The position numbers and the translations under genes are program-made. Shown here in pieces: positions 1,329 to 20,360 of a stretch of DNA of 64,000 nucleotides. Each line of letters begins with the position of its first letter. Within the stretch, counting starts at the first letter, position 1. This DNA is from Yamadazyma tenuis (Eukaryota; Ascomycota; Pichiomycetes; Serinales; Debaryomycetaceae): NCBI RefSeq assembly GCF_029203305.1, contig NC_089461.1, positions 1-64,000 of the forward strand, read 5' to 3'. The notes beneath the pieces were generated by a model. It was given only the letters and a program-made list of their open reading frames with translations. It was not told where the DNA came from and did no database searches.

Positions 1329-1359
1329 TTGATCATTGTTGAGATTTATTATCAAAGCT

Positions 1360-2000: not shown

Positions 2001-2159
2001 TCGCACGTACAAAGGTTTTCGCTCAATTAAGAATTTGTAATAGGTAGTTTTGCACCAAATATGCAACGCGGTGGTGCGCATGAAGTTTCTTGTATATTTT
2101 TCGCAGCCGAAGCTTAATGAGGCTTGTCGCAACAAATCTAGACCGTCATTATATACAGT

Positions 2160-2480: not shown

Positions 2481-3284
2481 CTAGTCATAATTCGCCCGAG
2501 TGAATTCTTATCCAAAGCTACAGAAATTGGTTAATCTAATCAAACTTCAGAGATGCTCAGCTCCCATTCCAGCCACAAAACTTATTATTCAAATTGGAGA
2601 AGCGCTTGAATACGTTTTGTTGAACCCAAAGCTCAAAGAGATGTTATATTTCAGGCCTAGAGGTTCGATATTTTTGTTGTAATTGTCTAAAGTAGAAGAA
2701 AACATTCAAATTATCCTGGCCAGCCCGCTAAAACCTTACGCAGAACAACCAGAAAAAGCACATCAGTTTCTATGATGGCAAGAGGAGAACCCTGCAATAT
2801 AATTCTGTTCAGGTTCCGATAAACCCGGTTCTTGTCTCAAGATTGAAACCAGGCACTATGGTGCTGTGTGCAAGTAAAGCCGGATGAGCTTATGGAAAAT
2901 ACACACTATACTATAGAGAATTCCCTTAAGTACTTGGAAAACAGGCTTGAGATGCAAGTAAAGTAATTATCAACCAAATAATTTACCATCTTATTCATCT
3001 TTTGTTGAGCGGTTATCGTGCTATTTTGAAAGTGTGCGTGCAGATTTGATTCTTGCACGACAGACCACATAATTCTTCTGATCCTAAAACCATATCTCTC
3101 TTCGTACTAAAGCCATGTAAACAGTCTACTTTCCTGCACGTTTATTTTGAAACTGTCGCCTTTTAATGTGTTAATTTTGACCGCCAATATATGAAAAATC
3201 CTGTGTGAAAATCTAACGTTCGAACTAGACATTTGATAGTCTCACTACAAAGTTCCATTACTTAAACCACAAAGACGTTTATTG

Positions 3285-3403
3285 ATATAGTACCAAGTAT
3301 TGGTAAGCGAAATAACTAGACAAAGAGAAATTATAATAACCAAACATTCATAAACAATCACGTTTCTCATGTATAAATCATATCCAGGTTCCATTGGATT
3401 GAT
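3285..3403 (-). repeat. Conserved 3' flank of adhesin 1
   Basis: The sequence just downstream of the stop codon (containing aagtattggtaagcgaaa, aattataataaccaaaca and aatcacgtttctcat) recurs at 10735-10853 and 16735-16856 beside the other two adhesins. It recurs inverted at 22186-22290 beside the adhesin remnant. It probably contains the 3' UTR and polyadenylation signals, and it shows the genes were duplicated with their flanks. Confidence 0.75.
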
Positions 3404-6178
3404 TCAAAATGATATCCACAAAAGAGCGGATAACACAGCCAAGAATGTGTATGTGTTTTTTGAACCCATGGCCTCGTACGTGGAGACTTCTTGTGGTGAG
3501 GATTCTGAGCCATTACCAGCTGAAGCCACTTCAGCAGCCGCTCCAGAACCATTCCCTTTAGCACCAGTTGGAGCAACGGTTTCAGTAGGGTTAGCAGTCA
3601 CGGCAGCAGCGACAGTGAACGTGGTATAGATTATGACTGTAGTATCTCCAGCAGCATTGGTGCATGGCTCGGTAACCACAACACTGGACACCAAAGAGTA
3701 TGGGATGTTACAGACAACGGTCTTCTTACCATCATCACCAGTTGTTGTGGTGGTTGAAGGTTCCTTGCAAGTACATGGCAAGATAATGGTGGTAACATCT
3801 TTTTCGATGACAACTGGTTCAGGAGTTTCAACGACTACGGTTGGTTTACCGTCAGGTCCAGTTGTGGTGTAGGTTGAAGTGAATGAACCAGTCCAAGGAG
3901 TTGTTATGTGTGCTTCTGGAGTCTCGACAACCACCGTTGGTTCACCATCTGTGCCTGTGGTAGTGTATGTCGTAGTGAAGGTTCCAGTCCAAGGGATAGT
4001 AGTGTGTGATTCTGGATTTTCAACCACGACTGTCACGTCACCATCTGGACCTGTGGTAGTGTAAGTTGAGGTGAAAGAGCCAGTCCAATGAGTGGAAGTG
4101 GTGAAGACAGTAGCTGGAGTTTCAACAACCTCGGTTGGATTACCATCGGTTCCAGTGGTGGTGTAAGTCGAAGTGAAGGTTCCGGTCCAAGGGATAGTGG
4201 TGTGTACTTCTGGAGTTTCTTTAACAATAGTTGGGTTACCATCGGTTCCAGTTGTAGTGTAAAAGGATGTGGTAGAGCCAGTCCATGGAGTGGTAACAGT
4301 TGGGACAGGAGTTTCTTTGACAATAGTTGGGTTACCATCGGTTCCAGTGGTGGTGTAAGTCGAAGTGAAGGTTCCGGTCCAAGGGATAGTGGTGTGTACT
4401 TCTGGAGTTTCTTTAACAATAGTTGGGTTACCATCGGTTCCAGTTGTAGTGTAAAAGGATGTGGTAGATCCAGTCCATGGAGTGGTAACAGTTGGGACAG
4501 GAGTTTCTTTGACAATAGTTGGGTTACCATCGGTTCCAGTTGTAGTGTAAAAGGATGTGGTAGATCCAGTCCATGGAGTGGTAACAGTTGGGACAGGAGT
4601 TTCTTTGACAATAGTTGGGTTACCATCGGTTCCAGTTGTAGTGTAAAAGGATGTGGTAGATCCAGTCCATGGAGTGGTAACAGTGACAGCACTTTCTGAA
4701 GATGGTACTGTTGTAGATGGAACGCTTGAAGATGGCACTTGACTAGAAGGAACGCTTGAAGATGGTACTGTGGACGAAGGAGTACTCGAAGATGATATTG
4801 GAGTACTTGAATTTGTCCAGTGAAACGACAGGCTTGATAACGAAGTGCTGGTAAGTGGTGTACTTGTTGGTGTGGGAGTGGTTGTTATTATAACGATAGT
4901 TATAGGATCACTTGGATTGGGAGGCGTTTCAGTATAGGTTGTACCGACGGTTCCATAACTAGTAGTGGTTGTCCTTGATTCTGGAGTCTTAATGTCAACA
5001 GTTACGGGATCACTTGGGTTGGATGGGTAGATGGTAGTGGTGGTAATACCTGTGCCTGTCCATGGTTCAGTAGTGGTCGTTGTAGTTTCAGGAGACAAGA
5101 TGACAAAGGTAATAGGATCACTTGGGTTGGATGGGTAGATGGTAGTAGTGGAAGGTTCTGTGCCTGTCCACACCTCAGTAGTGGTGGTGGTAGATTCTGG
5201 AGTCTTGATGTCAACAGTTACGGGATCACTTGGGTTGGATGGGTAGATGGTAGTAATGGTAGTTTCTGTGCCTGTCCATGGTTCAGTAGTGGTCGTTGTA
5301 GTTTCAGGAGTCAAGACGGTAATAGTCACGGGATCACTTAGGTTGGACGGGTAGATGGTAATAGTAGTAGGTACCGAACCTGTCCATACATCAGTAGTGG
5401 TAGTTGTAGATTCTGGTATTTCTTTCGTAACAGTAACATCACCATCTGATCCTGTTACTGTGAAATACTCAGTATCTGTTCCAGTCCATATATTAGTGGT
5501 GGTGGTGGTTGTACATAATTCCAGTTCCGTCTCATTGGTATAATACCAAGGCAAGTCAGTTGTATGATTGTTTCCATCAGGATATGTCACAGTAAGTCGT
5601 AAGCTAGCTGTATCGATTCCGGCTTGGTAGTAAATAATCTTCACCGGGTAATAGTCACCCCCAACAAGACGAACCTTTGTCACCGTGGTATCAACTCCTT
5701 TAGAACCTTCCAGAGCATAAATAGACCCATTTACCTGGAGATTACTGGAGCTTGAACAACAGTTAAGAGTATCTGTAACTCCACCAATGGCCAAAGATGC
5801 TTGATTGTCAGCAAGCGTAAATTGAAAAGTGTAAGTGCCTGTTTCAGGGGCACGAAAGTACCCAGAGAGCCTCAAGCCAAACTCATCTACCGGTGTACTT
5901 CGGCCATAAACATCTCTGTATTCTCCATCCAGGATTTTTGTCATATAAAAAGTAATATCTGACACTCCATAAGCTGTATAGTCAGGGGTCATAGCATCTA
6001 TTGTGCTCAAATAAGCAGAGGAAAGGTTGAGTGTCTCAACATCATCAAAGTAATCAACCACAAGTCCACTTTCTGTGGATGAAGGAGAGCATCCTGTTAT
6101 TCCGAGAACAAGCGGAGTGACAAAAGACAAAAATGTTATTGATTTTAAAATCATCTTACGTTTTTCGGCCAAATGCAA
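3404..6178 (-). CDS. GPI-anchored flocculin/Epa-like adhesin 1 with PA14-type ligand domain
   Basis: Predicted cell-wall adhesin of 924 residues. A hydrophobic signal peptide (about 9-30) suggests the true start may be Met9 (6154), since the first eight residues are charged. A PA14/Flo-type lectin domain (about 35-215) shows GLRLSGYF, TGTYTFQF, a Cys-Cys pair, GDYYPVKI and VTYPDG. The position of the calcium-binding D-cis-D pair of Flo/Epa lectins reads Asp124-Asn125. Then come four 36-aa TTTTTEPWTG / YPSNPSDP repeats, a Ser/Thr/Pro linker, a run of 32-aa TTPWTGS / TGTDGNPT repeats, a Cys-bearing stalk (ILPCTC) and a C-terminal GPI signal (GSKNTYTFLAVLSALLWISF). Function is inferred from architecture. 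The ligand is unknown. Transcribed toward the telomere, so subject to possible telomere-position silencing. Confidence 0.88.
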   Translation of the reverse strand: MHLAEKRKMILKSITFLSFVTPLVLGITGCSPSSTESGLVVDYFDDVETLNLSSAYLSTIDAMTPDYTAYGVSDITFYMTKILDGEYRDVYGRSTPVDEFGLRLSGYFRAPETGTYTFQFTLADNQASLAIGGVTDTLNCCSSSSNLQVNGSIYALEGSKGVDTTVTKVRLVGGDYYPVKIIYYQAGIDTASLRLTVTYPDGNNHTTDLPWYYTNETELELCTTTTTTNIWTGTDTEYFTVTGSDGDVTVTKEIPESTTTTTDVWTGSVPTTITIYPSNLSDPVTITVLTPETTTTTTEPWTGTETTITTIYPSNPSDPVTVDIKTPESTTTTTEVWTGTEPSTTTIYPSNPSDPITFVILSPETTTTTTEPWTGTGITTTTIYPSNPSDPVTVDIKTPESRTTTTSYGTVGTTYTETPPNPSDPITIVIITTTPTPTSTPLTSTSLSSLSFHWTNSSTPISSSSTPSSTVPSSSVPSSQVPSSSVPSTTVPSSESAVTVTTPWTGSTTSFYTTTGTDGNPTIVKETPVPTVTTPWTGSTTSFYTTTGTDGNPTIVKETPVPTVTTPWTGSTTSFYTTTGTDGNPTIVKETPEVHTTIPWTGTFTSTYTTTGTDGNPTIVKETPVPTVTTPWTGSTTSFYTTTGTDGNPTIVKETPEVHTTIPWTGTFTSTYTTTGTDGNPTEVVETPATVFTTSTHWTGSFTSTYTTTGPDGDVTVVVENPESHTTIPWTGTFTTTYTTTGTDGEPTVVVETPEAHITTPWTGSFTSTYTTTGPDGKPTVVVETPEPVVIEKDVTTIILPCTCKEPSTTTTTGDDGKKTVVCNIPYSLVSSVVVTEPCTNAAGDTTVIIYTTFTVAAAVTANPTETVAPTGAKGNGSGAAAEVASAGNGSESSPQEVSTYEAMGSKNTYTFLAVLSALLWISF
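4220..4690 (-). repeat. 96-bp coding tandem repeats in adhesin 1
   Basis: The phrase caatagttgggttaccatcg recurs at about 96-bp spacing (about 4226, 4322, 4418, 4514, 4610), each copy encoding 32 residues of the stalk. Two sub-variants alternate: TTPWTGSTTSFY and TTIPWTGTFTSTY. Differences are small and clustered, as expected from recent slippage or unequal exchange. Copy number is likely to vary between strains. Confidence 0.85.
4990..5430 (-). repeat. 108-bp coding repeats in adhesin 1 (diverged, 4 copies)
   Basis: Four 36-residue units (TTTTTxxWTGxxxTxxxYPSNPSDP followed by a variable V/I-rich stretch). They alternate between endings IKTPES and xLTPET/ILSPET. Unlike the homogeneous array in adhesin 2, these copies differ from each other at many positions, so this gene has not been homogenised recently. 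Confidence 0.8.
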
Positions 6179-6479
6179 AAGTAGAAGCCATTTTATATGC
6201 CTAAGTTGAAGTTCTTATATCCAACAACAACCACTGCAAGTGTTTCATTGGTGTTACTTAATTAGGACTTCACGAAAATGAACTTTCAAGGACCCTTGAT
6301 GTTCTCAAAAGGAACATCATAATCAACGAAAAGCGGTTTAATAAAGCTCCTTTTCAGGAGCACCACAATAAGCCGTACAATGAACAGTAGAGGATGCGAG
6401 CAAGGAAAGAAAGTTTATTCAGATGTTTAAAAATTAGGATTACCCGAAAGATTGGAAGTATTTCCTGGAATCACCTTTC

Positions 6480-7290
6480 TTCTTAGCAGTATTTCTAAAA
6501 ATGTAGTTTTTTACTTTGGAAGATATGCTTAATTAAATGTTTAACAGAAAAATAAAACCTTATTAATGAGGTGAAACTGCCCCACTCCTCGAATAGTAGA
6601 GAAGTTAACCTAGGGGAGACGAGTTTTACTACAAAGAGAGGCTTGTTTTTCTTCTTATTAGATATCTAGCCAAAAACGGCCATCGTTTTAAAATATGAGG
6701 TGAAGGAGAATCTGCAGGTTGATAAAGGCTTCTCCGTCGTCAGAAGGAAGTACCTTTCTCACCCAAAGCAGTAACTTTCTTTTCTTTGAAGGCATGTTCA
6801 ATCAAAAAAGGGATTTACATTCTCCAACAATATGGGGGGTTTGCCTTTTTCTCACTTAAAGTGTGCATTAACCGTAAAGGGTGATATTTAAATGCCGCAG
6901 GGTCTAGGAGTACAACTCAAAACGTCTACAGATTTCCGTTTGAACCACAGTGGGTTTAACAGATAACCAGCTGACCGGACCATTTAGGCAATTGGATAAT
7001 AGAAATTGTTGGCCGCCCGAAGACAGACATGACCTGATAACCACAGTGCTGAATTAAGATGATTTTCAGTCTATTGTTAACGAGAAAAATATTCCAGCAT
7101 ATGAAGTCCTTTTCACCCTTAAGGGGGAATTCTAGTTGATTCACTACTCTTTGGAGGCAACATTTCACAGATAGTGTCATGTACTCAGCCATTTGCCTCA
7201 TTGGGAATCTTTTGAGCTGGTCCTAAGCACTCAAAGAGGTAATATCATCATGCCTAATTAACATCATTTCTCGTATCTGCATATCTGACT
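6480..7290 (+). repeat. Conserved 5' flank of adhesin 1 (module F plus C, copy 1)
   Basis: The divergent intergenic region between adhesin 1 and the mannosyltransferase aligns with 19610-20360 upstream of adhesin 3. Shared landmarks are gagttttactaca/cagttttactaca, ttatataa-like A/T runs, aaaacgtcta, accatttagg and ttggataata. It presumably carries the promoter of the adhesin and was duplicated with it. No convincing gene lies in 6179-7530. Confidence 0.7.
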
Positions 7291-7530
7291 TCCAAACGCT
7301 AATGAGATTTTATGGTTATGATACTCCTTATCTGCAAAGTCTGACGGAAAAACAGGGACCAGAAGACCCCTTTTGTCGCATTACATCCCCCTTTCCGAAC
7401 ACATCCCAATTGCCTCTTACCGCTCCACTCACAGTTACACCTGACACGTTTATAGCTCAAAGTGATTATGTTCCTTATTTATAAATGGTCTCCCGGCGTT
7501 TTGTCAACACTTATCAAGATATAGGGTGAT

Positions 7531-9870
7531 TTGTCTCATATTATGGGGAAACTATTCAACATTAGTCACAATCGAAGGTTTTTTTTCTACGGATTCATCG
7601 TCTTTTGGATAGTTTCAGCTGGTATCTGGATCTATGACTACACTTTGAATGATTCTAGTGAGTCGGGCACGTCCATTTACCACCTGGAACTGACTCCAAA
7701 TGCAGGGTTGTCTAGTCCTCTGAGGGTCAACAAAATCGATGTGTTTGAAGATTGTGCCATCAAGAAGTTAGTGCAAACGTTGGGAATCGAGGATACTAGA
7801 AGTATTGATAGCCATTCGAGTGTGTATGACCAAATGTTGGAGAAGCATGCATTATCAGACATTCTAACAAACCTCGATTTCACTGAGAGATGCAACTTGT
7901 ACTTTAAGAACCTATTTGTGCGAGACCACAACTGGTTTGTGGATCCCAATGAAGACTTCCCTCTTGAACATCGTGATACATTTGACTTACAGCTGTTCGA
8001 AAAAGAGAATTCCAAAAAAATAAGGTACAAATATGCCCAAATGTCAAACTTAGAATACGACAAGATCAATTTCGACGACGAGAAAGTCCGCAAAGACGTG
8101 AAACGACTTGCTGAAGAAGAGTTCAATGAGTTCTGGGAACGAACCATGAAGACAGAACAGAAGATTGTAGACTACTTGTCCCATTTACGGATTTTCAACA
8201 AGTGCTATGTCACCAGTGATAATAGGTACATCATGAACAAAGCCAATGAATTGATAGAAAAAGTGGCTGACAACATAGATCACACTGAGTTCAAGGCCAA
8301 CGATGATGAACTGTTAATCAACGATCTGGGTTTCAAATCCTGTAGTGAGTTGGAAAGCAGAATCTATAAATGGGTGTCTCATTCTTATCCTATTTATGAA
8401 CGGTGGACTGGTGAAATATTTCTATCTCCTCCAGATCTAGGTGAATTTGTTCATTATCCTGAGGTGTTCAAGGCCACAAACTCCAAGTTCAAGGGGTCCA
8501 CCAAGGACTTCTCCAAATCCACCTTCGCTGAGAATGGGCCATGCTTCTTCAACAAATTCAAAAATCTGTTGAATGGAAAGGGTATTGTACTATCGATCGG
8601 AGACAAACATGTTGATGATACTGTGAGATTCATTCACCTATTAAGAGCGTTGAGCAACCACTATCCAATCCAAATCGTCTACTATGACTCGCTCAGTGAT
8701 GAGACCAAAGCAAGAATAGTCGCCGCTGCTAGAGACAAAATGATAGATTTACCAGAAAGCTTCCACAAAGTTTCCAAGAATTTCCCTTCCGACTACTTCC
8801 ACATCAAAGATGGTGGAATGCCCAAGCAAGAAGTGTGGTTTGTAAAGACGTACAACACCATTCATGACAACTTCAAAGAAAAGTTCAAGATGTTTGCCAA
8901 TAAGTTCCTAGCAACGTTGTTCAATTCATTTGAGGAATTCATTTTAGTTGATGCTGATACAGTGTTGTTGCAGAATCCATCCGAGTTTTTCGACTTGAAG
9001 GATTACAAAACCACCGGGGCCTACTTCTTCAAGGATAGAGCTGCTCATGCATTCAGGCCACCAGGTGATACTAAATTCTTTCAGAAGATAACCCCTTCAA
9101 TTTTAGACAACTTGATGTTTGATATTCCCGTCATCACCCAGAAGACTCTTGGATTAGAGTTCTTTGATGGAATGGGTCATTTCATGGAAAGCGGAGTGGT
9201 GTTGATCAATAGACACTTACACTTCAACTCCATCTTAACAATGCTCCAATTGAACTTCTTTAAGCCGGTTACCTCCAGAGTCCATGGAGACAAAGAGATA
9301 TTCTGGTTGGGATTCGCCGCCAGTGGTGATGAAGACTATCACTTCAACAAGAATTTTGCTGCATCAATCGGGACTCTTACTTCCCCGGAGGAAAGATTGA
9401 CCAGCGAAGGAAACCTCAAGAAATCTCAGGAACTCTGTTCGCCACATTCAGGACACCTTGATGAAAATGGAAAGTTATTGTGGTTTAACTCGGGTTTCAA
9501 GTTCTGTGGGAAAAGCGAACTTGTTAATTTTGAAGCCGAAATCAAGAAACACGACCATTTTAAATTTTTAAAAGATGCTGAATCCATGCGAGAGTATTAT
9601 GAAAGCTCTCTAAAACTTAGAAACGCAGTTATTCCTCCCTTCAATATAAAATCGGAAATAAGGGCAGGGAACAGTGTTGAAGAGCCAGTAGAAGGCTGGC
9701 ACATGGAACGTGGATATTGTCACAGTTATTTATGGTGTGCATACTCTTCGATAGGTGGACTCACCTCTGACGGACAAGATAACACTCAAGTGGGACAAGT
9801 GTTCGAGTTCGATCAGGACTCAATAGACTTGTATTCTTACTTGGGTGATATTTGGGTTGGGAATGAGTGA
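7531..9870 (+). CDS. MNN1-family alpha-1,3-mannosyltransferase (GT71), type II Golgi protein
   Basis: Predicted 779-residue Golgi enzyme of the Mnn1/Mnt3 family, which adds terminal alpha-1,3-mannose to N- and O-linked mannans from GDP-mannose. A short basic cytosolic tail is followed by one membrane anchor (about residues 17-34) and a lumenal catalytic region. The metal-binding DxD motif is D474-A-D476 in ILVDADTVLL. Later family blocks are visible: AYFFKDRAAH, FMESGVVLINR and GDKEIFWLGFA. The C-terminal YCHSYLWCAYSSIGG block is also present. Length fits the family. Two in-frame Met codons (1 and 5) could start it. It lies head-to-head with adhesin 1, and a remnant of the same gene lies beside adhesin 2. 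CTG-group yeasts have several MNN1 paralogues, so I give no symbol. Confidence 0.88.
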   Translation: MSHIMGKLFNISHNRRFFFYGFIVFWIVSAGIWIYDYTLNDSSESGTSIYHLELTPNAGLSSPLRVNKIDVFEDCAIKKLVQTLGIEDTRSIDSHSSVYDQMLEKHALSDILTNLDFTERCNLYFKNLFVRDHNWFVDPNEDFPLEHRDTFDLQLFEKENSKKIRYKYAQMSNLEYDKINFDDEKVRKDVKRLAEEEFNEFWERTMKTEQKIVDYLSHLRIFNKCYVTSDNRYIMNKANELIEKVADNIDHTEFKANDDELLINDLGFKSCSELESRIYKWVSHSYPIYERWTGEIFLSPPDLGEFVHYPEVFKATNSKFKGSTKDFSKSTFAENGPCFFNKFKNLLNGKGIVLSIGDKHVDDTVRFIHLLRALSNHYPIQIVYYDSLSDETKARIVAAARDKMIDLPESFHKVSKNFPSDYFHIKDGGMPKQEVWFVKTYNTIHDNFKEKFKMFANKFLATLFNSFEEFILVDADTVLLQNPSEFFDLKDYKTTGAYFFKDRAAHAFRPPGDTKFFQKITPSILDNLMFDIPVITQKTLGLEFFDGMGHFMESGVVLINRHLHFNSILTMLQLNFFKPVTSRVHGDKEIFWLGFAASGDEDYHFNKNFAASIGTLTSPEERLTSEGNLKKSQELCSPHSGHLDENGKLLWFNSGFKFCGKSELVNFEAEIKKHDHFKFLKDAESMREYYESSLKLRNAVIPPFNIKSEIRAGNSVEEPVEGWHMERGYCHSYLWCAYSSIGGLTSDGQDNTQVGQVFEFDQDSIDLYSYLGDIWVGNE

Positions 9871-10204
9871 TTATAGTACAGACGCTCATAGTGTTTTGTT
9901 TATGCGCTGGCAAACCTCCAAGTCATACGTCACCTGTGATACAACATTTTCCGAAGGTTTCGCTAGAACCCTGTTCTAAGAAAGTTTCATGGTGTAACTA
10001 TCCTGTTTTGGGTGGTCCCTGAAAGATAGGGTTAGATCAATGGTATACACAAATGAAAATAAACATACTCAATAGTAAATCTCGGAGAAATCGAAATTAT
10101 CTGAGTAAAATTCTCTTAATTTGTTTGACACATTAGGGGTAATAGTTCCAACATGGGTTTGCACACACGTCTTCCTTGTGTGCATTCAGACTTATATTTT
10201 GGAA

Positions 10205-10853
10205 CCATACTCTTTGGAAGTTGCTGCATGCAAATATTATACGCAGAATACCATGTGCTAGAATGTGCATCCATCTTTGAGTGAAGAGTTTACCTATCAT
10301 TAATTAGGCAATTTGAAATCTCTTAAAATATTTCTCTTCAATTCGCAAATTCTGCCAATTGTATTCAAATGGTCTTAAATATACACACGTTAGAAATTCT
10401 TCAATACATTCTGATAAATACCCAAAATATGATACATCAATACTTGGCCTGACAAGGACAACAATGAAACTAACCTCAACCGCAAACCGTAGCTTGACTA
10501 TCAAACGTTCATTGATTGCCTTGGTGCTATTTCACTTCGTGTGCGGATAAAATAGATATCAAGAATGAGATCTACGAGGGTTTTCGCTCGCTGCCAAATA
10601 ATCGGCATCTCGATACCTCCTCAAGTTCATTGTGATAGGGTTTGTGCTGGTAAAAACTCTGCTTCTTCCATAAGTAACCTTTAAGTAAGAGGAATTAAGG
10701 TTAATCTTCAATTTCATGTAGGGGAAAGTATATTAATACTGTATCAAGTATTGGTAAGCGAAAGAACTAGACGAAGAGAAATTATAATAACCAAACATGC
10801 ATAAACAATCACGTTTCTCATGCATAAATCACACCAGGTTCCATTGGATAGAT
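10205..10853 (+). repeat. Subtelomeric module B copy 2 and 3' flank of adhesin 2
   Basis: 10205-10565 matches module B (1640-2000). 10565-10853 is nearly identical to 16560-16856, including gccaaataatcggca, ctcgatacctcctcaagttc and tctgcttcttccataagtaa. From 9871 to about 10140, after the mannosyltransferase, I see nothing recognisable. Confidence 0.8.
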
Positions 10854-13800
10854 TCAAAATGAAATCCACAAAAGAGCGGATAACACAGCCAAGAATGTGT
10901 ATGTGTTTTTTGAACCCATGGCCTCGTACGTGGAGACTTCTTGTGGTGAAGTTTCTGAGCCATTACCTGCCGAAGCAGCTTCAGATCCATTACCTCCAGT
11001 ACCACTGCCTTCAGCACCATTACCCTCGTCACCAGTTGGAGAAACGGTTTCAGTAGGGTTAGCAGTGACAGCAGCAGCGGCAGTGAAAGTCGTATATGTC
11101 GTGACAGTAACATCTCCAGCAGCATTGGTGCATGGCTCGGTCACCACCACAGTGGACACTAATGAGTGTGGGATTTTACAGACAACGGTCTTCTTACCAT
11201 CATCACCAGTTGTTGTGGTGGTTGAAGGCTCCTTACAAGTGCACGGCAAGATGATGGTGGTGACATCTTTTTCCGTGACAACAGGTTTTGGAGTTTCAAC
11301 CACAACTGTTGGTTTACCATCAGATCCAGTTGTAGTGTAAGTTGAAGTGAATGTTCCTGTCCAAGGGGTGAAGATAGTTGGTTCAGGAGTCTCGACAACC
11401 ACGGTTGGTTCACCATCAGATCCTGTGGTAGTGTAAGTTGATGTAACAGATCCGGTCCATGGAGTAGTGATGGTAGGTATAGGGGTATCTATAACAACAG
11501 TTGGTTTACCATCGGTTCCGGTTGTGGTATATGTAGATGTAACTGAGCCAGTCCAAGGAGTAGTGATAGTGAAAACGCTAGCTGGGGTCTCAACAACCGC
11601 AGTTGGTTTACCATCGGTTCCGGTTGTGGTATAAGTAGATGTTCCAGAGCCGGTCCATGGGGTGGTGATAGTGATGACACTTACAGAAGGAGCTGGACTA
11701 GAAGGAGCTGGACTAGAAGGAGCTGAGCTAGAAGGAGCTGGACTAGAAAGAGCTGGACTAGAAGGAGCTGGACTAGAAGGAGAAGCAACACTAGAAGATG
11801 GCCCTGTTGAGGACGGAGTGCTAGAAGATGATATTGGAGTAGTTGAATTCAACCAATGAAAAGACAGGCTTGATGGCTTAGCACTTGATGAAGAAGTACT
11901 TGATGGAGTAGGAGTTGTTTCAACAACAACAGTCACTGGGTCACTTGGGTTTGAAGGAGTAATAGTATAGGTCGTAGCAACGGATCCAATATGGGTTGTA
12001 GTGGTTGTTGATTCTGGGGTCTTGATGTCAACAGTTACAGGATCACTTGGATTGGATGGATAGATGGTAATGGTAGTAGGTACTGAACCTGTCCATGGTT
12101 CTGTAGTGGTTGTTGTAGATTCTGGGGTCTTGATGTCAACAGTTACAGGATCACTTGGATTGGATGGATAGATGGTAATGGTAGTAGGTACTGAACCTGT
12201 CCATGGTTCTGTAGTGGTTGTTGTAGATTCTGGGGTCTTGATGTCAACAGTTACAGGATCACTTGGATTGGATGGATAGATGGTAATGGTAGTAGGTACT
12301 GAACCTGTCCATGGTTCTGTAGTGGTTGTTGTAGATTCTGGGGTCTTGATGTCAACAGTTACAGGATCACTTGGATTGGATGGATAGATGGTAATGGTAG
12401 TAGGTACTGAACCTGTCCATGGTTCTGTAGTGGTTGTTGTAGATTCTGGGGTCTTGATGTCAACAGTTACAGGATCACTTGGATTGGATGGATAGATGGT
12501 AATGGTAGTAGGTACTGAACCTGTCCATGGTTCTGTAGTGGTTGTTGTAGATTCTGGGGTCTTGATGTCAACAGTTACAGGATCACTTGGATTGGACGGA
12601 TAGATGGTAATGGTAGTAGGTACTGAACCTGTCCATGGTTCTGTAGTGGTTGTTGTAGATTCTGGGGTCTTGATGTCAACAGTTACAGGATCACTTGGAT
12701 TGGATGGATAGATGGTAATGGTAGTAGGTACTGAACCTGTCCATGGTTCTGTAGTGGTTGTTGTAGATTCTGGGGTCTTGATGTCAACAGTTACAGGATC
12801 ACTTGGATTGGATGGATAGATGGTAATGGTAGTAGGTACTGAACCTGTCCATGGTTCTGTAGTGGTTGTTGTAGATTCTGGGGTCTTGATGTCAACAGTT
12901 ACAGGATCACTTGGATTGGATGGATAGATGGTAATGGTAGTAGGTACTGAACCTGTCCATGGTTCTGTAGTGGTTGTTGTAGATTCTGGGGTCTTGATGT
13001 CAACAGTTACAGGATCACTTGGATTGGATGGATAGATGGTAATGGTAGTAGGTACTGAACCTGTCCATGGTTCTGTAGTGGTTGTTGTAGATTCTGGGGT
13101 CTTGATGTCAACAGTTACAGGATCACTTGGATTGGATGGATAGATGGTAATGGTAGTAGGTACTGAACCTGTCCATACTTCAGTTGTAGTCGTAGTGGAT
13201 TCTGGTACATCCTTGGTGACAGTAACATCACCATCTGAACCTGTTACTGTAAAATATTCAGTATCTGATCCAGTCCAAATATTGGTTGTGGTCGTGGAAT
13301 AAGGACAAGATGTGCTATTGTTCGTCGAGCTGTACCAATCAATATCAGTCGTATGATTTGTTCCATCAGGATAGGTGACGGACATATTGAAGTGGGCACC
13401 ACTTACAACATTCATGAAAACCACCTTGATAGGATAATAGACTCCTGCAGTAAGATGAACTGTCTTTGCGACTGATGTGCTTTCACCTTCAGCATACCAG
13501 TGTGCATATTCGGTCACGGCAGTTGGGAATTGACTCGATCCACAACATTCCATAGCAACTCCAGCCCCGATTGACAACGAAGCTGCATCATCAGCAAATG
13601 TTATTGATATCGTGTAATCTCCAGTTGTTTCGGCATATAAATATCCTGTAAGCCTCAAACCGAAGTGATCTGTTGTAACATCGTGGCCATATAGGACATT
13701 AGTACCTGGATAAATCCAGAAATCTTGCTCAGTCACGCCACTCCATGAATATTCTGCCTCTCTTTGGCTAACTACAGCAAGGCCAGATTCTAACAGTGCA

Positions 13801-13961
13801 GAATCACCAACTGTCCATTCATTTTCTGCTACCTCGATGTATTCGGCATAGAGACCTTTATCAACAGGGGTGGGGCTGCACCCTCCAACAGAATCTGCAC
13901 TTGAGACAGAACGAATGAATTGAAAGATTCCGATTGATAGTAACGTGTAATGGAATTTCAT
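10854..13961 (-). CDS. GPI-anchored flocculin/Epa-like adhesin 2 with 11 identical 36-aa repeats
   Basis: Predicted 1035-residue cell-wall adhesin. Signal peptide about 1-21. The PA14/Flo-type lectin domain (about 27-215) contains GLRLTGYLYAETTGDYTIS, Asp124-Asp125 at the calcium-binding D-cis-D position, the Cys-Cys pair (MECCGSS), GVYYPIKV and VTYPDG. This is the only one of the three copies with the full Asp-Asp pair. Eleven TTTTTEPWTG / YPSNPSDP units follow, the first reading EVWTG. Next come a Ser/Pro-rich linker with six SSPAP-like pentads, TTPWTGS / TTTGTDGKPT units, the ILPCTC stalk and a GPI signal ending LLWISF. The repeats are Thr-rich and should be heavily O-mannosylated. Ligand unknown. 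Transcribed toward the telomere. Confidence 0.88.
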   Translation of the reverse strand: MKFHYTLLSIGIFQFIRSVSSADSVGGCSPTPVDKGLYAEYIEVAENEWTVGDSALLESGLAVVSQREAEYSWSGVTEQDFWIYPGTNVLYGHDVTTDHFGLRLTGYLYAETTGDYTISITFADDAASLSIGAGVAMECCGSSQFPTAVTEYAHWYAEGESTSVAKTVHLTAGVYYPIKVVFMNVVSGAHFNMSVTYPDGTNHTTDIDWYSSTNNSTSCPYSTTTTNIWTGSDTEYFTVTGSDGDVTVTKDVPESTTTTTEVWTGSVPTTITIYPSNPSDPVTVDIKTPESTTTTTEPWTGSVPTTITIYPSNPSDPVTVDIKTPESTTTTTEPWTGSVPTTITIYPSNPSDPVTVDIKTPESTTTTTEPWTGSVPTTITIYPSNPSDPVTVDIKTPESTTTTTEPWTGSVPTTITIYPSNPSDPVTVDIKTPESTTTTTEPWTGSVPTTITIYPSNPSDPVTVDIKTPESTTTTTEPWTGSVPTTITIYPSNPSDPVTVDIKTPESTTTTTEPWTGSVPTTITIYPSNPSDPVTVDIKTPESTTTTTEPWTGSVPTTITIYPSNPSDPVTVDIKTPESTTTTTEPWTGSVPTTITIYPSNPSDPVTVDIKTPESTTTTTEPWTGSVPTTITIYPSNPSDPVTVDIKTPESTTTTTHIGSVATTYTITPSNPSDPVTVVVETTPTPSSTSSSSAKPSSLSFHWLNSTTPISSSSTPSSTGPSSSVASPSSPAPSSPALSSPAPSSSAPSSPAPSSPAPSVSVITITTPWTGSGTSTYTTTGTDGKPTAVVETPASVFTITTPWTGSVTSTYTTTGTDGKPTVVIDTPIPTITTPWTGSVTSTYTTTGSDGEPTVVVETPEPTIFTPWTGTFTSTYTTTGSDGKPTVVVETPKPVVTEKDVTTIILPCTCKEPSTTTTTGDDGKKTVVCKIPHSLVSTVVVTEPCTNAAGDVTVTTYTTFTAAAAVTANPTETVSPTGDEGNGAEGSGTGGNGSEAASAGNGSETSPQEVSTYEAMGSKNTYTFLAVLSALLWISF
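11689..11778 (-). repeat. 15-bp minisatellite encoding SSPAP (6 units)
   Basis: Six units of ggagctggactagaa, with single-base variants in units 3 and 5, encode the Ser-Ser-Pro-Ala-Pro linker. The same locus in adhesin 3 (17769-17798) has only two units while surrounding bases look identical. This is a length polymorphism between otherwise near-identical segments. Confidence 0.9.
12010..13197 (-). repeat. 108-bp coding array, 11 near-identical copies in adhesin 2
   Basis: Eleven units of exactly 108 bp (36 codons) phased from 12010. Within the array I see one substitution (C at 12597, tggacgga for tggatgga). The last unit (about 13165-13197) also diverges where it meets the lectin-proximal sequence. 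Such homogeneity indicates very recent expansion or gene conversion. Copy number in an assembly should be treated with caution. Confidence 0.93.
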
Positions 13962-14614
13962 TCTTGCTTAGTTTCATGTTACGGATATGGGACAGGTATA
14001 AATGATTATCAGTAGAGTCAACCAACATCTAAATTCTAGGTGTCATTCTCATCTTATGTACCTATAACGGGTTACTCTTAGACCAATTAGGTATGATCTC
14101 AACGAAACTGTGTTGAAAGAACATGGAAAGTAGCACAATGCTCGTTTCGCCTTTACAAGCAAACCCAACCAAATACACAACACACAAGTCGGGATGTGTC
14201 CCTTTGGGGAGACTTTCAAGCCAGAAAAGAATACGGCCGTATAGAAAGTTCACTGTTAGAGTAGCTGGTACCTGGTAAATGCCACCCAAATGGGTCATTT
14301 CCCATTTTTGAAAACTTTAATATACTTCTAATTAGAAAATGGGGTAAGAGATTTTGTAGGAGTACTTCTTTTGGCTGTTGTGTCTGTGAATTGGGAATAG
14401 TAGAGGGTAACTATAGCGAAATTCCCAAAATGGAGATGTATTACAAGGGGCATATTCATAAAGGGGGGCCAATCTCATACGTAAAAGGCAACTACTCGTA
14501 TATTTTAAAAATGAATCTTGGTCCTTATTTTCCTTCTAATTTAAGGTTTCCCTAAATCTGGCCCGAAGGAGCAATCAGCTTTTAACTTTAGTAAAGATAG
14601 ATGCTAAACAAGAA

Positions 14615-14790
14615 AATCTAAGGCTTTGCTTGCCGGGTATTCCGCGATATATTTAATGAAAGTACTAAAAGTATCAGAGATATACCGATAAAGTAATTCT
14701 TGCTAATCTAAGGCTTTGCCGGGTATTCCGCGATATATTTAACGAAAGTACTAAAAGTATCAGAGATATACCGATCAAGTAATTCTTGCT
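14615..14790. repeat. Tandem duplication of about 88 bp in adhesin 2 upstream region
   Basis: Two direct copies, 14615-14704 (90 bp) and 14705-14790 (86 bp). They differ by a 4-bp indel (gctttgcttgccggg versus gctttgccggg) and a few substitutions. Both hold ccgcgatatattta and aaagtactaaaagtatcaga. They lie about 650-830 bp 5' of adhesin 2. The surrounding 13962-15050 region has no recognisable gene. Confidence 0.9.
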
Positions 14791-15049
14791 AATCTAATTC
14801 ATTAAGGAAAAAAGGTCAAGAAGCGGTAATTGGAAATTAGTATTCATTACGTCATGTTGGTGGTGGAACAGATACAAGTCCCATTTACCAGAATACCTAA
14901 ACTATTTTCATTCCTTCGTTTATCGCGATCGTACTTCTTTCTTGAATGTCAGCTTCAAAGAGTCGACGAGTCGAAGAGCCTCTGCTGCCATCTCGTAATG
15001 ATGTGTTTCGCCATCCAACAACTGCAGAGATAAGATTATCAAGCAATCA

Positions 15050-15340
15050 AGTTAGATGAATAATATAACTATGGGCAGGTTTGTACATGAAGGGGACAAT
15101 GTGATTCAAAAAAGTATCAAAAAGGAGGGGAGATGAGAAGCACCATTCTATTATTCCATTGGAAGAAGGCAGTATCCAACTCGGCTTCAACTACTTTGTT
15201 GTTATAAATGATGCCCCTTTCCGCTTTCGCATGTACTACAAACTGGGAAAACTGAGGACTTAAGGCACTATCCTGCATTTGATTCTAAATAATGTTTCTA
15301 TATTTGGCATTCCGTTAAATCCGAGCGATTACTAAAAATC
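15050..15340 (+). repeat. Subtelomeric module E, copy 1
   Basis: Aligns in the same orientation with 20805-21065. Shared landmarks are gaggacaatgtgat/ggggacaatgtgat, caactcggct, ctactttgtt, ggaaaactgagg and tttggcattccgt. It is diverged and carries no conserved open frame. It occurs at the distal end of the 5' regions of adhesins 2 and 3. Confidence 0.7.
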
Positions 15341-15416
15341 TGATGGTTAAAGCTAACGAGAAATGTGCGTATCCAAAAAATAATTATGCCTACACACAGG
15401 AAAGGCTGGTTGCAAA

Positions 15417-15671
15417 ATTAGAAATGCGGTTCTTCCTCCCTTCATGGGGAAATCGGAAATAAGGGCAGGGAATAGCGTGGAAGAGCCAGTATAACGCTGA
15501 CGTGGATATTGTCACAGTTGTTTATGGTGTGCATACTCTTCGATAGGTGGACTCACCTCTGACGGAGAAGATAACACTCAAGTGGGACAAGTGTACAAGT
15601 TCGGTCAGGACTCAATAGACTTGTACTCTTATTTGGGTGATATTTGGGTTGGGAATGAGTGATTATAGTAT
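15417..15671 (+). pseudogene. 3' remnant of an MNN1-type mannosyltransferase gene
   Basis: About 255 bp closely match the last 250 bp of the intact mannosyltransferase (about 9617-9880), including its stop codon and ten bases beyond. Everything 5' is missing. A small internal deletion turns the GAA-GAG-CCA-GTA stretch into one followed directly by TAA at 15492, so the piece is also broken internally. The remaining differences are scattered substitutions. It occupies the same relative position beside adhesin 2 as the intact gene does beside adhesin 1, pointing to an ancestral two-gene duplication unit. Confidence 0.9.
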
Positions 15672-16104
15672 GGTCCAACCAGTATTCAATTATTGAATTA
15701 TGGGTAAATATTGGAATATATCAAAAGAAATTTCTTACATAATAGAGGAACACAATTCTAAGATTCTGCGAATTGAAGAAAGAATCCTTAAACGATTACA
15801 AATAGCTTGATTAATGTTCGTAAACTCACCCACACCCAGAAGTCGAGTACATATGCACGTATAGGACATTATGCGTAGCATATGATTTTTATAAAGCAGC
15901 TTGAAAAGTGTATGGTTCCGAAACAGGTTTACCCCCTGCCTTACCTATGTGCAGTCAAATTTATTTTTGGATACGAATATCTCTCCTTAGCTTCCGCATG
16001 GATTCTTACTATTCGCTCGGGATTTATTCTAGTTCAAACCCCTACTTGTTTACTTGTTGAGTTGAAGATTGGTATAACAATTGGGCATTTTTGGCATTTA
16101 TAAC

Positions 16105-16570
16105 CAAAGCTTAACAATAGGTGCCAGTCCATTGGAAGAGGGATCAGCTAAGACTACTTCCCTTTCTAAGCATATCCACCTCCACATACCGTAAACCAAG
16201 AAAAGTGAGGACACATAGATATTAATCCTGTATGTGCCTAAGAACAAAACTTTAATTGGAAAATCTCTGGTATTGTTATAACTCCGAACGATCACGTAAA
16301 AATCTGATGGTGGAATTTAAGGGGATATGGGTATACACCTGTTTTTTGCGAACCATACAAATTGGAAGTTGCTGCGTGGCAAATAATATACAATGCAGAA
16401 TACCATGTACAAGCATGTCTAACCAGTTTCTGAGTGTGAGATTTCACGAATCATCAATCAAGCAATTTGAAATCGTCGAAGGAACTTCTCTTCAATTTGC
16501 AGATTGTCTTGGTGTTTTTCTAGTTCGTGTTTAGATAAATTGAATATCAAGAATTGGATCTCGCACGCAC
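16105..16570 (+). repeat. Subtelomeric modules A (copy 2) and B (copy 3, shortened)
   Basis: 16105-16320 matches module A (1360-1565). 16360-16570 matches the ends of module B with an internal deletion. A short expansion of the tetranucleotide cgca (four units near 16560-16576) is present only here. Between 15672 and 16105 I see only a short stretch resembling the ggtttac/gtgcagtca segment also found near 21110-21150. Confidence 0.7.
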
Positions 16571-16856
16571 GCACGCACGAAGGTTTTCGCTCGTTGCCAA
16601 ATAATCGGCACCTCGATACCTCCTCAAGTTCATTGTGATAGGGTTTGTGCTGGTAAAAACTCTGCTTCTTCCATAAGTAACCTTTAAGTAGCAGGTGTTA
16701 AGGTTAATCTTCAAGTTCATGGCGGGAAAAGTATATTAATACTGAATCAAGTATTGGTAAGCGAAAGAACTAGACAAAGAGAAATTATAATAACCAAACA
16801 TGCATAACCAATCACGTTTCTCATGCATGAATCACACCAGGTTCCATTGGATAGAT

Positions 16857-19463
16857 TCAAAATGAAATCCACAAAAGAGCGGATAACACAGCCAAGAATG
16901 TGTATGTGTTTTTTGAGCCCATAGCCTCGTAAGTGGAGACTTCTTGTGGTGAGGAGTCTGAGCCATTACCAGCTGAAGCTGCTTCAGCAGCCGCTCCAGA
17001 ACCACTACCTTTAGCACCAGTTGGAGCAACGGATTCAGTAGGGTTAGCAGTGACAGCAGCTGCGATAGTGAAAGTTGTATAAGTTGTGACGGTAGCATCT
17101 CCCGCGGCATTAGTGCACGGCTCGGTGGCCACGACTGTTGAGACTAATGAGTGTGGGATGTTACAGACAACGGTCTTCTTACCATCATCACCAGTTGTTG
17201 TGGTGGTTGAAGGCTCCTTGCAGGTGCATGGCAAGATGATGGTAGTGACATCTTTTTCCGTGACAACAGGTTGAGGAGTCTCAACAACCACGGTTGGTTT
17301 ACCATCAGATCCAGTTGTAGTGTAAGTTGAAGTGAATGTTCCTGTCCAAGGGGTGAAGATAGTTGGTTCAGGAGTCTCGACAACCACGGTTGGTTTACCA
17401 TCAGATCCAGTTGTAGTGTAAGTTGAAGTGAATGTTCCTGTCCAAGGGGTGAAGATAGTTGGTTCAGGAGTCTCGACAACCACGGTTGGTTCACCATCAG
17501 ATCCTGTGGTAGTGTAAGTTGATGTAACAGATCCGGTCCATGGAGTAGTGATGGTAGGTATAGGGGTATCTATAACAACAGTTGGTTTACCATCGGTTCC
17601 GGTTGTGGTATATGTAGATGTAACTGAGCCAGTCCAAGGAGTAGTGATAGTGAAAACGCTAGCTGGGGTCTCAACAACCGCAGTTGGTTTACCATCGGTT
17701 CCGGTTGTGGTATAAGTAGATGTTCCAGAGCCGGTCCATGGGGTGGTGATAGTGATGACACTTACAGAAGGAGCTGGACTAGAAGGAGCTGGACTAGAAG
17801 GAGAAGCAACACTAGAAGATGGCCCTGTTGAGGACGGAGTGCTAGAAGATGATATTGGAGTAGTTGAATTCAACCAATGAAAAGACAGGCTTGATGGCTT
17901 AGCACTTGATGAAGAAGTACTTGATGGAGTAGGAGTTGTTTCAACAACAACAGTCACTGGGTCACTTGGGTTTGAAGGAGTAATAGTATAGGTCGTAGCA
18001 ACGGATCCAATATGGGTTGTAGTGGTTGTTGATTCTGGGGTCTTGACTTCAACAGTTACAGGATCACTTGGATTGGAAGGGTAGTGGGTGATGGTGGTAG
18101 TTCCCGAACCTGTCCATGGCTCGGTAGTGGTCGTTGTAGTTTCAGGAGTCAAGACGTCAACAGTTACAGGATCACTTGGATTGGAAGGGTAGTGGGTGAT
18201 GGTGGTAGTTCCCGAACCTGTCCATGGCTCGGTAGTGGTCGTTGTAGTTTCAGGAGTCAAGACGTCAACAGTTACAGGATCACTTGGATTGGAAGGGTAG
18301 TGGGTGATGGTGGTAGTTCCCGAACCTGTCCATGGCTCGGTAGTGGTCGTTGTAGTTTCAGGAGTCAAGACGTCAACAGTTACAGGATCACTTGGATTGG
18401 AAGGGTAGTGGGTGATGGTGGTAGTTCCCGAACCTGTCCATGGCTCGGTAGTGGTCGTTGTAGTTTCAGGAGTCAAGACGTCAACAGTTACAGGATCACT
18501 TGGATTGGAAGGGTAGTGGGTGATGGTGGTAGTTCCCGAACCTGTCCATGGCTCGGTAGTGGTCGTTGTAGTTTCAGGAGTCAAGACGTCAACAGTTACA
18601 GGATCACTTGGATTGGAAGGGTAGTGGGTGATGGTGGTAGTTCCCGAACCTGTCCATACTTCAGTAGTGGTCGTTGTAGTTTCTGGTACTTCAACAGTAA
18701 CAGTTACGTCCCCATCAGAGGCCGTAATAGTAAATGTCTCAGTATCGGTTCCTGTCCATATGAGAGTGGTGGTTGTAGTAACAGGACAATAAGAAGAATC
18801 GGTTGTGTTCAACTCATAGAAAGGAAGATCAGAATCAGTGACATATGTACCGTCGGGTAAGGTCATAGAAATATTGAGGATACCGTCCCCTGTGTAACCG
18901 TTATAAAAAAGTATCTTGATGGGATAATACACGCCAGCCTTAAGTTGGTATTGTGCAGACGCTGTCTCGGGCAGATAGAAATTATTGGCAAACAGGTAGG
19001 AACTGTCTCCTGCTGTATATGCAATGTTTGTATCACTGCAGCAGGTAAATCCGTTTCCATTTCCAAGTGTTAAAGCCCCAGCATTGTTATAATTTGCCAG
19101 AATGGTGTAAGTTCCTGACTCAGAAGCATATAGGTAACCTGTAAGTCTCACTCCTATCTTTTCGGTGTTCACAGAACAACCATAAAGACTCTTAGTTAGC
19201 CCAATCTCGTCCACGGTATAGATGAAGTTAACATCATCACCTGTATTACCAGTACAAACAACGTTTTCTTTGTCCATTCTTTCAAAAAGGGTCTCGAAAG
19301 ATGGTTGATCATTAGTTATCTCGTCTGTATTTACACTGACGAACTCAGACTTTAAACCCCGTATAAGGTCACTTGTGGTGGGAGAACACCCTCCCACATC
19401 AACAGCGGCACATAATATTGGTGTCAAGAATACCAAGCCACTTAATATGCTAGTGAGTCTCAT
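16857..19463 (-). CDS. GPI-anchored flocculin/Epa-like adhesin 3
   Basis: Predicted 868-residue cell-wall adhesin. Signal peptide about 1-19. A PA14/Flo-like domain (about 23-225) keeps GVRLTGYLYASESGTYTI, the Cys-Cys pair (FTCCSD), GVYYPIKI and MTLPDG. The D-cis-D site reads Asn126-Asn127, so calcium-dependent sugar binding of the usual type is doubtful. The domain has about 15 extra residues near its start compared with adhesins 1 and 2. Six TTTTTEPWTGSGTTTITHYPSNPSDP-type units follow. After them the linker, TTPWTG repeats, ILPCTC stalk and GPI signal (LLWISF end) are almost identical to those of adhesin 2. It is the most telomere-distal intact copy, transcribed toward the telomere. Confidence 0.87.
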   Translation of the reverse strand: MRLTSILSGLVFLTPILCAAVDVGGCSPTTSDLIRGLKSEFVSVNTDEITNDQPSFETLFERMDKENVVCTGNTGDDVNFIYTVDEIGLTKSLYGCSVNTEKIGVRLTGYLYASESGTYTILANYNNAGALTLGNGNGFTCCSDTNIAYTAGDSSYLFANNFYLPETASAQYQLKAGVYYPIKILFYNGYTGDGILNISMTLPDGTYVTDSDLPFYELNTTDSSYCPVTTTTTLIWTGTDTETFTITASDGDVTVTVEVPETTTTTTEVWTGSGTTTITHYPSNPSDPVTVDVLTPETTTTTTEPWTGSGTTTITHYPSNPSDPVTVDVLTPETTTTTTEPWTGSGTTTITHYPSNPSDPVTVDVLTPETTTTTTEPWTGSGTTTITHYPSNPSDPVTVDVLTPETTTTTTEPWTGSGTTTITHYPSNPSDPVTVDVLTPETTTTTTEPWTGSGTTTITHYPSNPSDPVTVEVKTPESTTTTTHIGSVATTYTITPSNPSDPVTVVVETTPTPSSTSSSSAKPSSLSFHWLNSTTPISSSSTPSSTGPSSSVASPSSPAPSSPAPSVSVITITTPWTGSGTSTYTTTGTDGKPTAVVETPASVFTITTPWTGSVTSTYTTTGTDGKPTVVIDTPIPTITTPWTGSVTSTYTTTGSDGEPTVVVETPEPTIFTPWTGTFTSTYTTTGSDGKPTVVVETPEPTIFTPWTGTFTSTYTTTGSDGKPTVVVETPQPVVTEKDVTTIILPCTCKEPSTTTTTGDDGKKTVVCNIPHSLVSTVVATEPCTNAAGDATVTTYTTFTIAAAVTANPTESVAPTGAKGSGSGAAAEAASAGNGSDSSPQEVSTYEAMGSKNTYTFLAVLSALLWISF
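18031..18678 (-). repeat. 108-bp coding array, 6 copies in adhesin 3
   Basis: Six 108-bp units phased from 18031 encode 36-residue repeats with HYPSNPSDPVTVDVLTPET. Internal units look identical. Unit length and layout match the arrays in adhesins 1 and 2, but the sequence is its own variant (THYPSN rather than TIYPSN). So arrays are homogenised within genes more than between them. Confidence 0.92.
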
Positions 19464-19609
19464 CAGAACAATTTGAATACAATTAGGGTATTTCGTTGAC
19501 TATATATCCACTTATGGGCAAATGAGAATGACTAGACTTGGGAAGCTTCCGAATAATATCTATTAATGTTTTGGGCAGCTACTGAAGTACAATATCCTGG
19601 AAGGAAAAA

Positions 19610-20360
19610 ATAATGAACAAACTATTGCCAAAAATTGGTACTTTCATTTTGGAATATGTGCTTGATAAAAGGTTAAACAAACCTTAATAATGAAGTGAAA
19701 GGGTGACACTTCTGAAAGGGTAGAGACTTATACCTAAGGGGGACCAGTTTTACTACAAGGGGTAGTTTCATTAGGCACCCAGACAAAAATGACCATTGGT
19801 TTAGAAAACTTAGCTAAAAGGGTAACTAGAAGTTGATTCAGGTTCTATCGTCGTCAAACCAAACTACTTTGTTATTCTCAATGCAGCAACTTACTTGTCG
19901 CTAAAGGTATCTTGATCCAAAAACAAATTTATATAATCCAACGATATAGGGGCTTTACCCTATTTTCACTTAAAGAGTGCAGCTAACTATATACAGTGCT
20001 ACAGAGCCTGAAAGTACAATCCAAAACGTCTAAATGTTTCCGGTCATGCTACATGCGGTCTAACGGACAGCCAGTTGATTGCACCATTTAGGGAATTGGA
20101 TAATAAAAAATGTTGAACTTCACAATGGGCCAAGACCACGATGCTCTGAATTAAGAAAAACCAGGGAGGCGGCCTATTGTTGGCCAAAAAATAATCTCGC
20201 ATACCAAGGTCACGGGATATGCAACCTTAAAGGGGGTAGTCATTTTTATGTGACCCACTACCCGTCGAAGGGCAGGTTTTTACAAATGGGGTCGTATACC
20301 CGGCCATTAATCCTCTTAGGAATATGTTGAGCTGGCTCTAAATGCCAACTTGTCCCCATA
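19610..20360 (+). repeat. Conserved 5' flank of adhesin 3 (module F plus C, copy 2)
   Basis: Homologous to 6480-7290 upstream of adhesin 1, with the same order of landmarks. Open frames at 20079-20330 and 20342-20566 lie here or just beyond it. Neither is conserved in the paired copy, so no gene is called. No mannosyltransferase follows this copy. Confidence 0.65.

Follow-up and report, generated by a model that had tools for sequence, protein, structure and literature searches.

An adhesin-mannosyltransferase unit recurs at the chromosome ends of Yamadazyma tenuis

Organization of the left end of contig C1

The stretch of DNA analyzed here (the window) comprises the first 64,000 nucleotides of contig NC_089461.1 (C1, 2.56 Mb) of Yamadazyma tenuis and represents the left end of that contig (C1L). 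Adjacent to its telomere lies a two-gene unit, an adhesin gene and a divergently oriented MNN1-type mannosyltransferase gene, which recurs at other chromosome ends of this genome. The genome compared consisted of 8 contigs totaling 10.86 Mb, seven of them chromosome-sized. All 14 resulting chromosome ends, named by contig and side (L or R), were examined over 6 to approximately 32 kb each, with 64 kb for the window end and short gaps at C1R and C6R. The features of the window end are listed below, where T denotes the linker between telomere and adhesin.

1..1328: telomere array of a 24-nt unit common to 13 of the 14 ends, C-rich strand on the plus strand
1329..3403: T linker, long form, 2,075 bp, telomere to adhesin; 99% identical at C3R, C4R, C5L and C6R
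3404..6154, minus strand: adhesin unit 1, with GLEYA/PA14 head, Ser/Thr-rich repeats and hydrophobic C-terminal tail; closest heads at C7L and C1R
6155..7542: divergent intergenic region of unit 1; the adhesin side varies by head type
7543..9870, plus strand: complete MNN1-type (GT71) mannosyltransferase, 775 aa, PF11051
9871..10196: MNN1 3' flank of unit 1, a divergent form; 72-77% identical to the other seven complete terminal copies over the first 300 bp
10197..10853: T linker of unit 2, short form without its start; 89-90% identical to the terminal T of C7R, C1R, C2L and C7L
10854..13961, minus strand: adhesin unit 2; closest head that of the inner C4R adhesin (78%)
13962..15048: 5' region of unit 2, matching C4:1228885-1229893 collinearly at 76-78%
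15049..15416: subtelomeric module with a different origin, fused to the enzyme remnant; matches C6R 1117015, C3L 7033 and window 20802-21059
15405..15659, plus strand: MNN1 remnant, residues 688-775, two in-frame stops, 82% identity
15660..16856: MNN1 3' flank, then T linker beginning at 16086, the usual start point
16857..19463, minus strand: adhesin unit 3; closest head that of the second C1R adhesin (53%)
19464..21868: 5' region of unit 3; weakly similar to units 1 and 2, and no match to the enzyme found
21869..22336, plus strand: inverted remnant of an adhesin 3' end and linker, a fourth adhesin piece absent from the original prediction

The gene content anticipated by the original prediction, which was made from the sequence of this stretch, was confirmed. 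The three minus-strand adhesin frames all carry GLEYA, the enzyme of unit 1 is complete, unit 2 keeps a 255-bp piece of it, and no piece was found behind unit 3. The remnant corresponds to the C-terminal end of the enzyme only, and its match to the intact window enzyme (E 5e-97) is far above chance. Repetition of the flanks was also predicted and held for one side: the adhesin 3' modules at 3277-3380, 10728-10831 and 16731-16834 match each other at 89-91%, but a common 5' module was not recovered, as the 5' flanks of unit 1 (6155-7542) and unit 2 (13962-15404) gave no match at E 1e-5 for pieces of at least 100 bp. Under the same thresholds the 5' flanks of units 1 and 3 share approximately 530 bp at 68%, and those of units 2 and 3 approximately 270 bp at 73%.

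Predicted properties of the adhesins and the mannosyltransferase

All three window adhesins exceeded the Pfam cut-offs for both GLEYA and PA14. The middle part contained 38-45% Ser and Thr in all 19 adhesin frames compared, with repeats in the three window genes, and by eye both the signal peptide and the glycosylphosphatidylinositol-type hydrophobic C-terminus look right, the C2R frame being cut by its contig end. The PA14/GLEYA head is shared with the Flo/GLEYA adhesins; the second window head matched BA75_04148 (6e-20), Flo5 (1e-19), Cea1 (3e-16) and Epa1 (2e-12), as well as the Flo1 lectin structure. A protein search with this head returned one match, itself from Y. tenuis. When heads were aligned by eye to Flo5, in which a DD pair presumably marks the calcium site, DD or DN was present at this place in 17 of 19 heads, whereas the third window head and the second C1R head have NN.

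The enzyme matched PF11051 over the full model length with 265 bits against a cut-off of 22, and matched the solved structure of Mnt2 (chain 7xjv_A, 2e-47). Inspection by eye showed hydrophobic sequence close to the N-terminus, a candidate membrane anchor, and a DAD triplet as a candidate for the DxD motif of MNN1-type GT71 enzymes. Among the best 120 of 162 relatives, the closest outside Y. tenuis are approximately 58% identical. In the Golgi, enzymes of the Mnn1/Mnt2 family attach alpha-1,3-mannose to the ends of glycan chains. By analogy, the window enzyme should add terminal alpha-1,3-mannose and thereby touch adhesin stalks as well as other wall proteins.

Distribution of the pair across chromosome ends

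The order telomere, T, adhesin with its 3' end outward, and divergent MNN1-type gene was found at nine of the 14 ends (C1L, C1R, C2L, C3R, C4R, C5L, C6R, C7L and C7R). Adhesin and enzyme are divergent in all nine, and the enzyme frame is complete (775 aa) in eight. Much of the approximately 600 bp adjoining MNN1 in the intergenic region of unit 1 is common to eight other ends. The two genes are therefore adjacent at subtelomeres of Y. tenuis other than that of the window, as the original prediction had anticipated. The 24-nt telomere unit was present at every end except C2R, where the contig stops within an adhesin without telomere repeats (C2:2169473-2171298); this end is therefore incomplete.

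Across the genome, the enzyme family yielded 21 matches, 13 of which belong to the window enzyme's own group (at least 66% identity), along with three remnants. Adhesin tails gave at least 42 matching pieces and GLEYA heads at least 33, both counts being lower bounds. Seven members or remnants of the enzyme group are non-terminal: three are complete (the second C2L copy, the inner C4R copy and one in the interior of C2), one in the interior of C1 is cut, and three are short remnants. Damage thus affects one terminal copy and four of the seven non-terminal ones.

Homogenization, exchange and selection of the enzyme

The eight complete terminal enzymes were 97.7-99.9% identical in pairwise DNA comparisons, whatever head adjoins. 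The neutral simulations and the four-gamete test used the seven distinct complete terminal copies, C5L being dropped as a near copy of C4R. As Y. tenuis, a member of the order Serinales, reads CTG as serine, the selection tests were run with translation table 12. The ratio of nonsynonymous to synonymous substitution rates (dN/dS) in pairs of the eight complete terminal enzymes was 0.12-0.30 where defined, C4R and C5L showing no synonymous change. Of 114 changes among the seven distinct copies, 57 were nonsynonymous compared to 80.6 expected, and none of 5,000 neutral simulations gave a value as low. There were no stops compared to 3.7 expected (P 0.024), and no indels in 2,328 enzyme columns. 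The promoter, by comparison, had 4 indels in 503 columns and the 3' flank 8 in 314 (C1L left out). The absence of stops and indels arises partly by construction, since only complete copies entered the comparison and the damaged one at C2L was omitted. The terminal enzyme copies are under purifying selection. Decay of the enzyme copies as a general trend, proposed in the original prediction, was rejected because eight of nine terminal copies are complete and under purifying selection.

Among 41 informative sites, 453 of 820 pairs failed the four-gamete test and at least 18 recombination intervals were required. Since these pairs are incompatible with one tree, repeated exchange between ends is needed. 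Median identities over the 28 pairs of eight ends were 98.6% and 97.9% for the enzyme halves, 93.0% for the enzyme-side promoter, 91.4% for the adhesin tail and 71.7% for the head; in the enzyme 3' flank the median was 90.9%, falling to 76.7% in the second 300 bp. The identity profile is therefore highest on the enzyme, and several end pairs switch from near-identity to background level in or beside it. For example, C1L and C1R differ by a synonymous divergence (dS) of 0.05 in the enzyme compared to 0.53 in the head, with 99.9% identity in the 5' half of the enzyme and 97.3% in the 3' half, while C3R and C6R are 99.8-100% identical in head, tail and promoter and 98.6% and 97.9% in the enzyme halves. 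Within the unit, the ligand-binding adhesin head is old and diverse, the tail is fairly uniform, and uniformity is greatest in the enzyme.

Adhesin heads and matched variation

Head and enzyme distances were compared by Mantel tests of low power. No significant correlation was observed over eight ends (r 0.28, P 0.14), over seven ends without the near-duplicate C5L (r -0.15, P 0.85), or over six ends without C5L and C6R (r -0.12, P 0.72). The original prediction had suggested that co-duplication could be selected for matching surface protein and glycan variation; such matched variation is unsupported, since the enzymes are near-identical whatever the head and no significant correlation was found. 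Nine pairs of heads, chosen from 171 possible, gave no sign that whole heads are under diversifying selection: dN/dS was 0.24-0.42 in eight of them and undefined in the ninth (C3R/C6R), which shows one change.

The T linker and the ancestral repeating unit

T occurs in a long form of 2,075 bp at five ends and in a short form of approximately 855-960 bp at four. Within the end regions, a new T begins at T position 1-7 behind the enzyme at six of 13 enzyme ends or remnants, namely the terminal copies of C2L, C3R, C6R and C7R, the inner C4R copy and the window remnant. Because this junction is common to six sites, enzyme-then-T is read as the ancestral arrangement. T-adhesin-MNN1 is an ancestral repeating unit, and the tandem unit is real as an ancestral form. 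The predicted tandem two-gene cassette therefore stands as an ancestral unit, but not as a set of local copies, the window heads being closest, among 19 of the 33 heads, to those of other ends. Recurrence of the enzyme-to-linker junction at six inner sites also argues against an origin of the remnant and the intact gene from unrelated insertions. A search of the six junctions for interstitial telomere repeats, the marks of former ends, found none.

One telomere unit adjoins another T start at C6:1122223. This is one of several lone telomere units of approximately 18-26 nt in interior or subtelomeric positions (C2:607424, C4:1240877, C5:12162 and C6:1122223), which look as if they had been inserted during break repair.

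Origin of the units in the window

A tree was generated from 19 heads (17 distinct) of the 33 GLEYA heads; of its 14 inner branches, six had low support and were drawn open. The three window heads fall in separate groups. The unit 1 head grouped with those of C1R, C7L and an inner C3R adhesin (support 93/99, drawn open as low), the unit 2 head with the inner C4R head (98/100) and the unit 3 head with the second C1R head (100/100). Within this sample, window heads are 28-37% identical among themselves compared to 53-78% to heads elsewhere.

Over approximately 660 bp, unit 2 has a T with 89-90% identity to the terminal T of C7R, C1R, C2L and C7L. Compared with the T of unit 3 it reaches 88% over 355 bp, and compared with that of unit 1, 83% over 393 bp and 91% over another 127 bp. 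Within the remnant, 15500-15659 matches each of the eight complete terminal enzymes at 93-96%, its own neighbor being marginally first (95.6% vs 95.0%). Beside this part the match to terminal enzymes is 83-84% on the left and, where found, 71-76% on the right, a profile expected of a short conversion tract. At C4:1226194-1231119 there is a related truncated unit, with a head 78% identical, a remnant in the same place and a collinear flank at 74-78%. It follows that the truncated unit was copied between ends.

These results bear on the origin given in the original prediction, in which a two-gene cassette was duplicated in tandem at this end and the enzyme copies then decayed. Three head-to-tail adhesins accompanied by one intact enzyme and one remnant are what that history would leave, and parts of the 3' halves of adhesins 2 and 3 reach 95-99% identity. 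It is nevertheless very improbable. Among 19 of the 33 heads, the closest relative of each window head lies at another end, leaving local tandem duplication unsupported, the linker of unit 2 is closer to the terminal linkers of four other ends than to those of units 1 and 3, and the truncated unit on C4 repeats the same arrangement.

A probable subtelomeric cassette and competing explanations

The results are probably best explained by a subtelomeric cassette in which a homogenized enzyme and similar adhesin tails flank exchangeable heads. Similar blocks on both sides of the head, the enzyme inside and the adhesin tail and T outside, would let ends recombine. Such recombination would swap heads and add or remove units, while selection and conversion would keep the enzyme working. 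The route, which we infer from the pattern of identity, is probably break-induced replication. The enzyme would act in the Golgi on wall glycoproteins in general, Ser/Thr-rich adhesin stalks included, and a specific functional pairing with the neighboring adhesin is possible.

A number of observations weigh against this cassette. The comparison covers one assembly, and the exchange route is deduced from pattern. Five of the 14 ends are without the pair: at C3L and C2R (the latter an incomplete contig) the outermost adhesin has no enzyme beside it, C4L and C5R carry small fragments only, and C6L (C6:1-2183) carries a telomere-capped adhesin piece in opposite orientation. At C2L the paired enzyme is damaged, its frame spanning 612 aa, and another complete copy (86%) comes after it. 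C4R and C5L are 99.95% identical over at least 12 kb, which could mean that one end was transferred very recently or that the assembly duplicated it. Recurrent mutation can mimic exchange, and recent spread can lower divergence. An incomplete T lies behind the terminal enzymes of C1L, C1R, C4R and C5L, and among the 13 enzyme ends no T was found behind C7L, the second C2L copy and the C4R remnant. The uniformity of T is moderate, the 300 bp beside the adhesin having a median identity of 83.6% and a minimum of 76.0%.

The strongest rival is that the enzyme is a passenger, spread within a subtelomeric duplicon, its copies kept by gene dosage or by conversion from a small number of functional ones, with no functional tie to the adhesin. 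It explains the uniformity of the enzyme equally well and is thus a rival mainly on function, where we regard it as an even call. Enzyme variation does not follow head variation in the Mantel tests of six to eight ends, two ends have an outermost adhesin without an enzyme (one at an incomplete contig end), and the GLEYA matches, at least 33, outnumber the 13 members and three remnants of the enzyme group. Complete frames at eight of nine ends and purifying selection count against a mere passenger and imply that at least some enzyme copies do something. Another rival is a functional pair selected as such, the enzyme modifying the adhesin stalk or making the mannose ligand that PA14-type heads bind on neighboring cells. 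The divergent linkage at all nine paired ends, the matches of the second window head to lectin structures of Flo5, Flo1 and Epa1, and that of the enzyme to the alpha-1,3-mannosyltransferase Mnt2 are consistent with this, as is the account in the available part of PMC3276169 that Eremothecium cymbalariae is without an MNN1-family gene and its hyphae without cell-cell adhesion. Such a functional pair is nonetheless unlikely, given that enzyme and head diversity are uncoupled and that enzymes of the Golgi modify secreted proteins broadly, making linkage to an adhesin unnecessary. More speculative still, and held at low odds, is a linked recognition pair in which a diversifying lectin adhesin is joined to a ligand-building enzyme gene that doubles as the homology anchor for head exchange; if true, one gene would both make the shared ligand and drive the reassortment of its receptors.

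Two questions thereby become testable in Y. tenuis, which is not known as a pathogen: whether a variable family of surface proteins can be kept in reassortment by exchange at a conserved gene, and whether there is a reason for the continued linkage of an adhesin to an enzyme shaping cell-surface mannan.

Comparison with known systems

The Y' elements of Saccharomyces cerevisiae are terminal, repeated and similar between ends, and encode a helicase. Terminal repetition across many ends is displayed by the Y. tenuis cassette at nine of 14 ends; unlike Y', the cassette carries an adhesin and a glycosyltransferase. Frames of at least 100 aa beginning with ATG in 1-22300 were those of the adhesins, the enzyme or the telomere repeats, or overlapped one of them; no helicase frame was seen, no helicase model having been searched. 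With the Mnn1/Mnt2 enzymes (GT71) the cassette enzyme shares the PF11051 domain, but in Y. tenuis it occurs at chromosome ends as eight complete copies that are nearly identical.

Several yeasts are known to have terminal adhesin families; in Y. tenuis a homogenized mannosyltransferase is built into the same end unit and is more uniform than its surroundings. According to the available text of PMC9548116, approximately two thirds of adhesin genes of Candida glabrata lie in subtelomeres, where loss, duplication and conversion shape their evolution. Break-induced replication in this species is reported to affect the telomere-nearest gene (Xu et al. 2021, as cited in the available part of PMC8712946). 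The EPA and other C. glabrata adhesins are thus likewise subtelomeric and shaped by duplication and conversion, but the available text of PMC9548116 describes no mannosyltransferase in a repeated terminal unit, whereas in Y. tenuis the enzyme is the most uniform part of that unit. Terminal regions of Candida auris hold candidate adhesins, and in one clade II isolate a larger deletion took a putative MNN1 (PMC8128392, available part). There the adhesins are Hyr/Iff and species-specific types compared to GLEYA in Y. tenuis, and the same portion of that source describes no paired adhesin-MNN1 unit common to many ends. No description of an adhesin-MNN1 end unit was found among the best matches in the open literature. 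As of 2021, the sole Y. tenuis assembly then available was fragmented (PMC8712946, available part). CANTEDRAFT_101864 of Y. tenuis, which may or may not be a cassette gene, is reported to belong to an unspecified subtelomeric gene family (PMC6692504, citing Wohlbach 2011).

Other features

In the middle of C1, the largest chromosome, head-to-head telomere repeats occur at C1:1302533-1302603, with approximately 24-28 nt of G-rich followed by 43 nt of C-rich sequence. On the left side an enzyme copy breaks off at the repeat; on the right side, at a distance of 1.5 kb, are a linker end and an adhesin. The site looks like the scar of an end-to-end chromosome fusion; a scaffolding error is possible, yet the repeat is far shorter than telomere arrays. 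Near this scar, an interior block (C1:1307737-1314165) carries the same subtelomeric matches twice, 5,283 bp apart.

At C6L, an open frame extends out of the telomere repeats into the adhesin tail. Within the long T linker of the window, 2196-2464 resembles the promoter region on the enzyme side (7110-7372) at approximately 72% identity and has the same orientation; if it is a promoter, transcription would point at the 3' end of the adhesin. Immediately interior to the adhesin units lies a multicopper oxidase gene (23227-25275).

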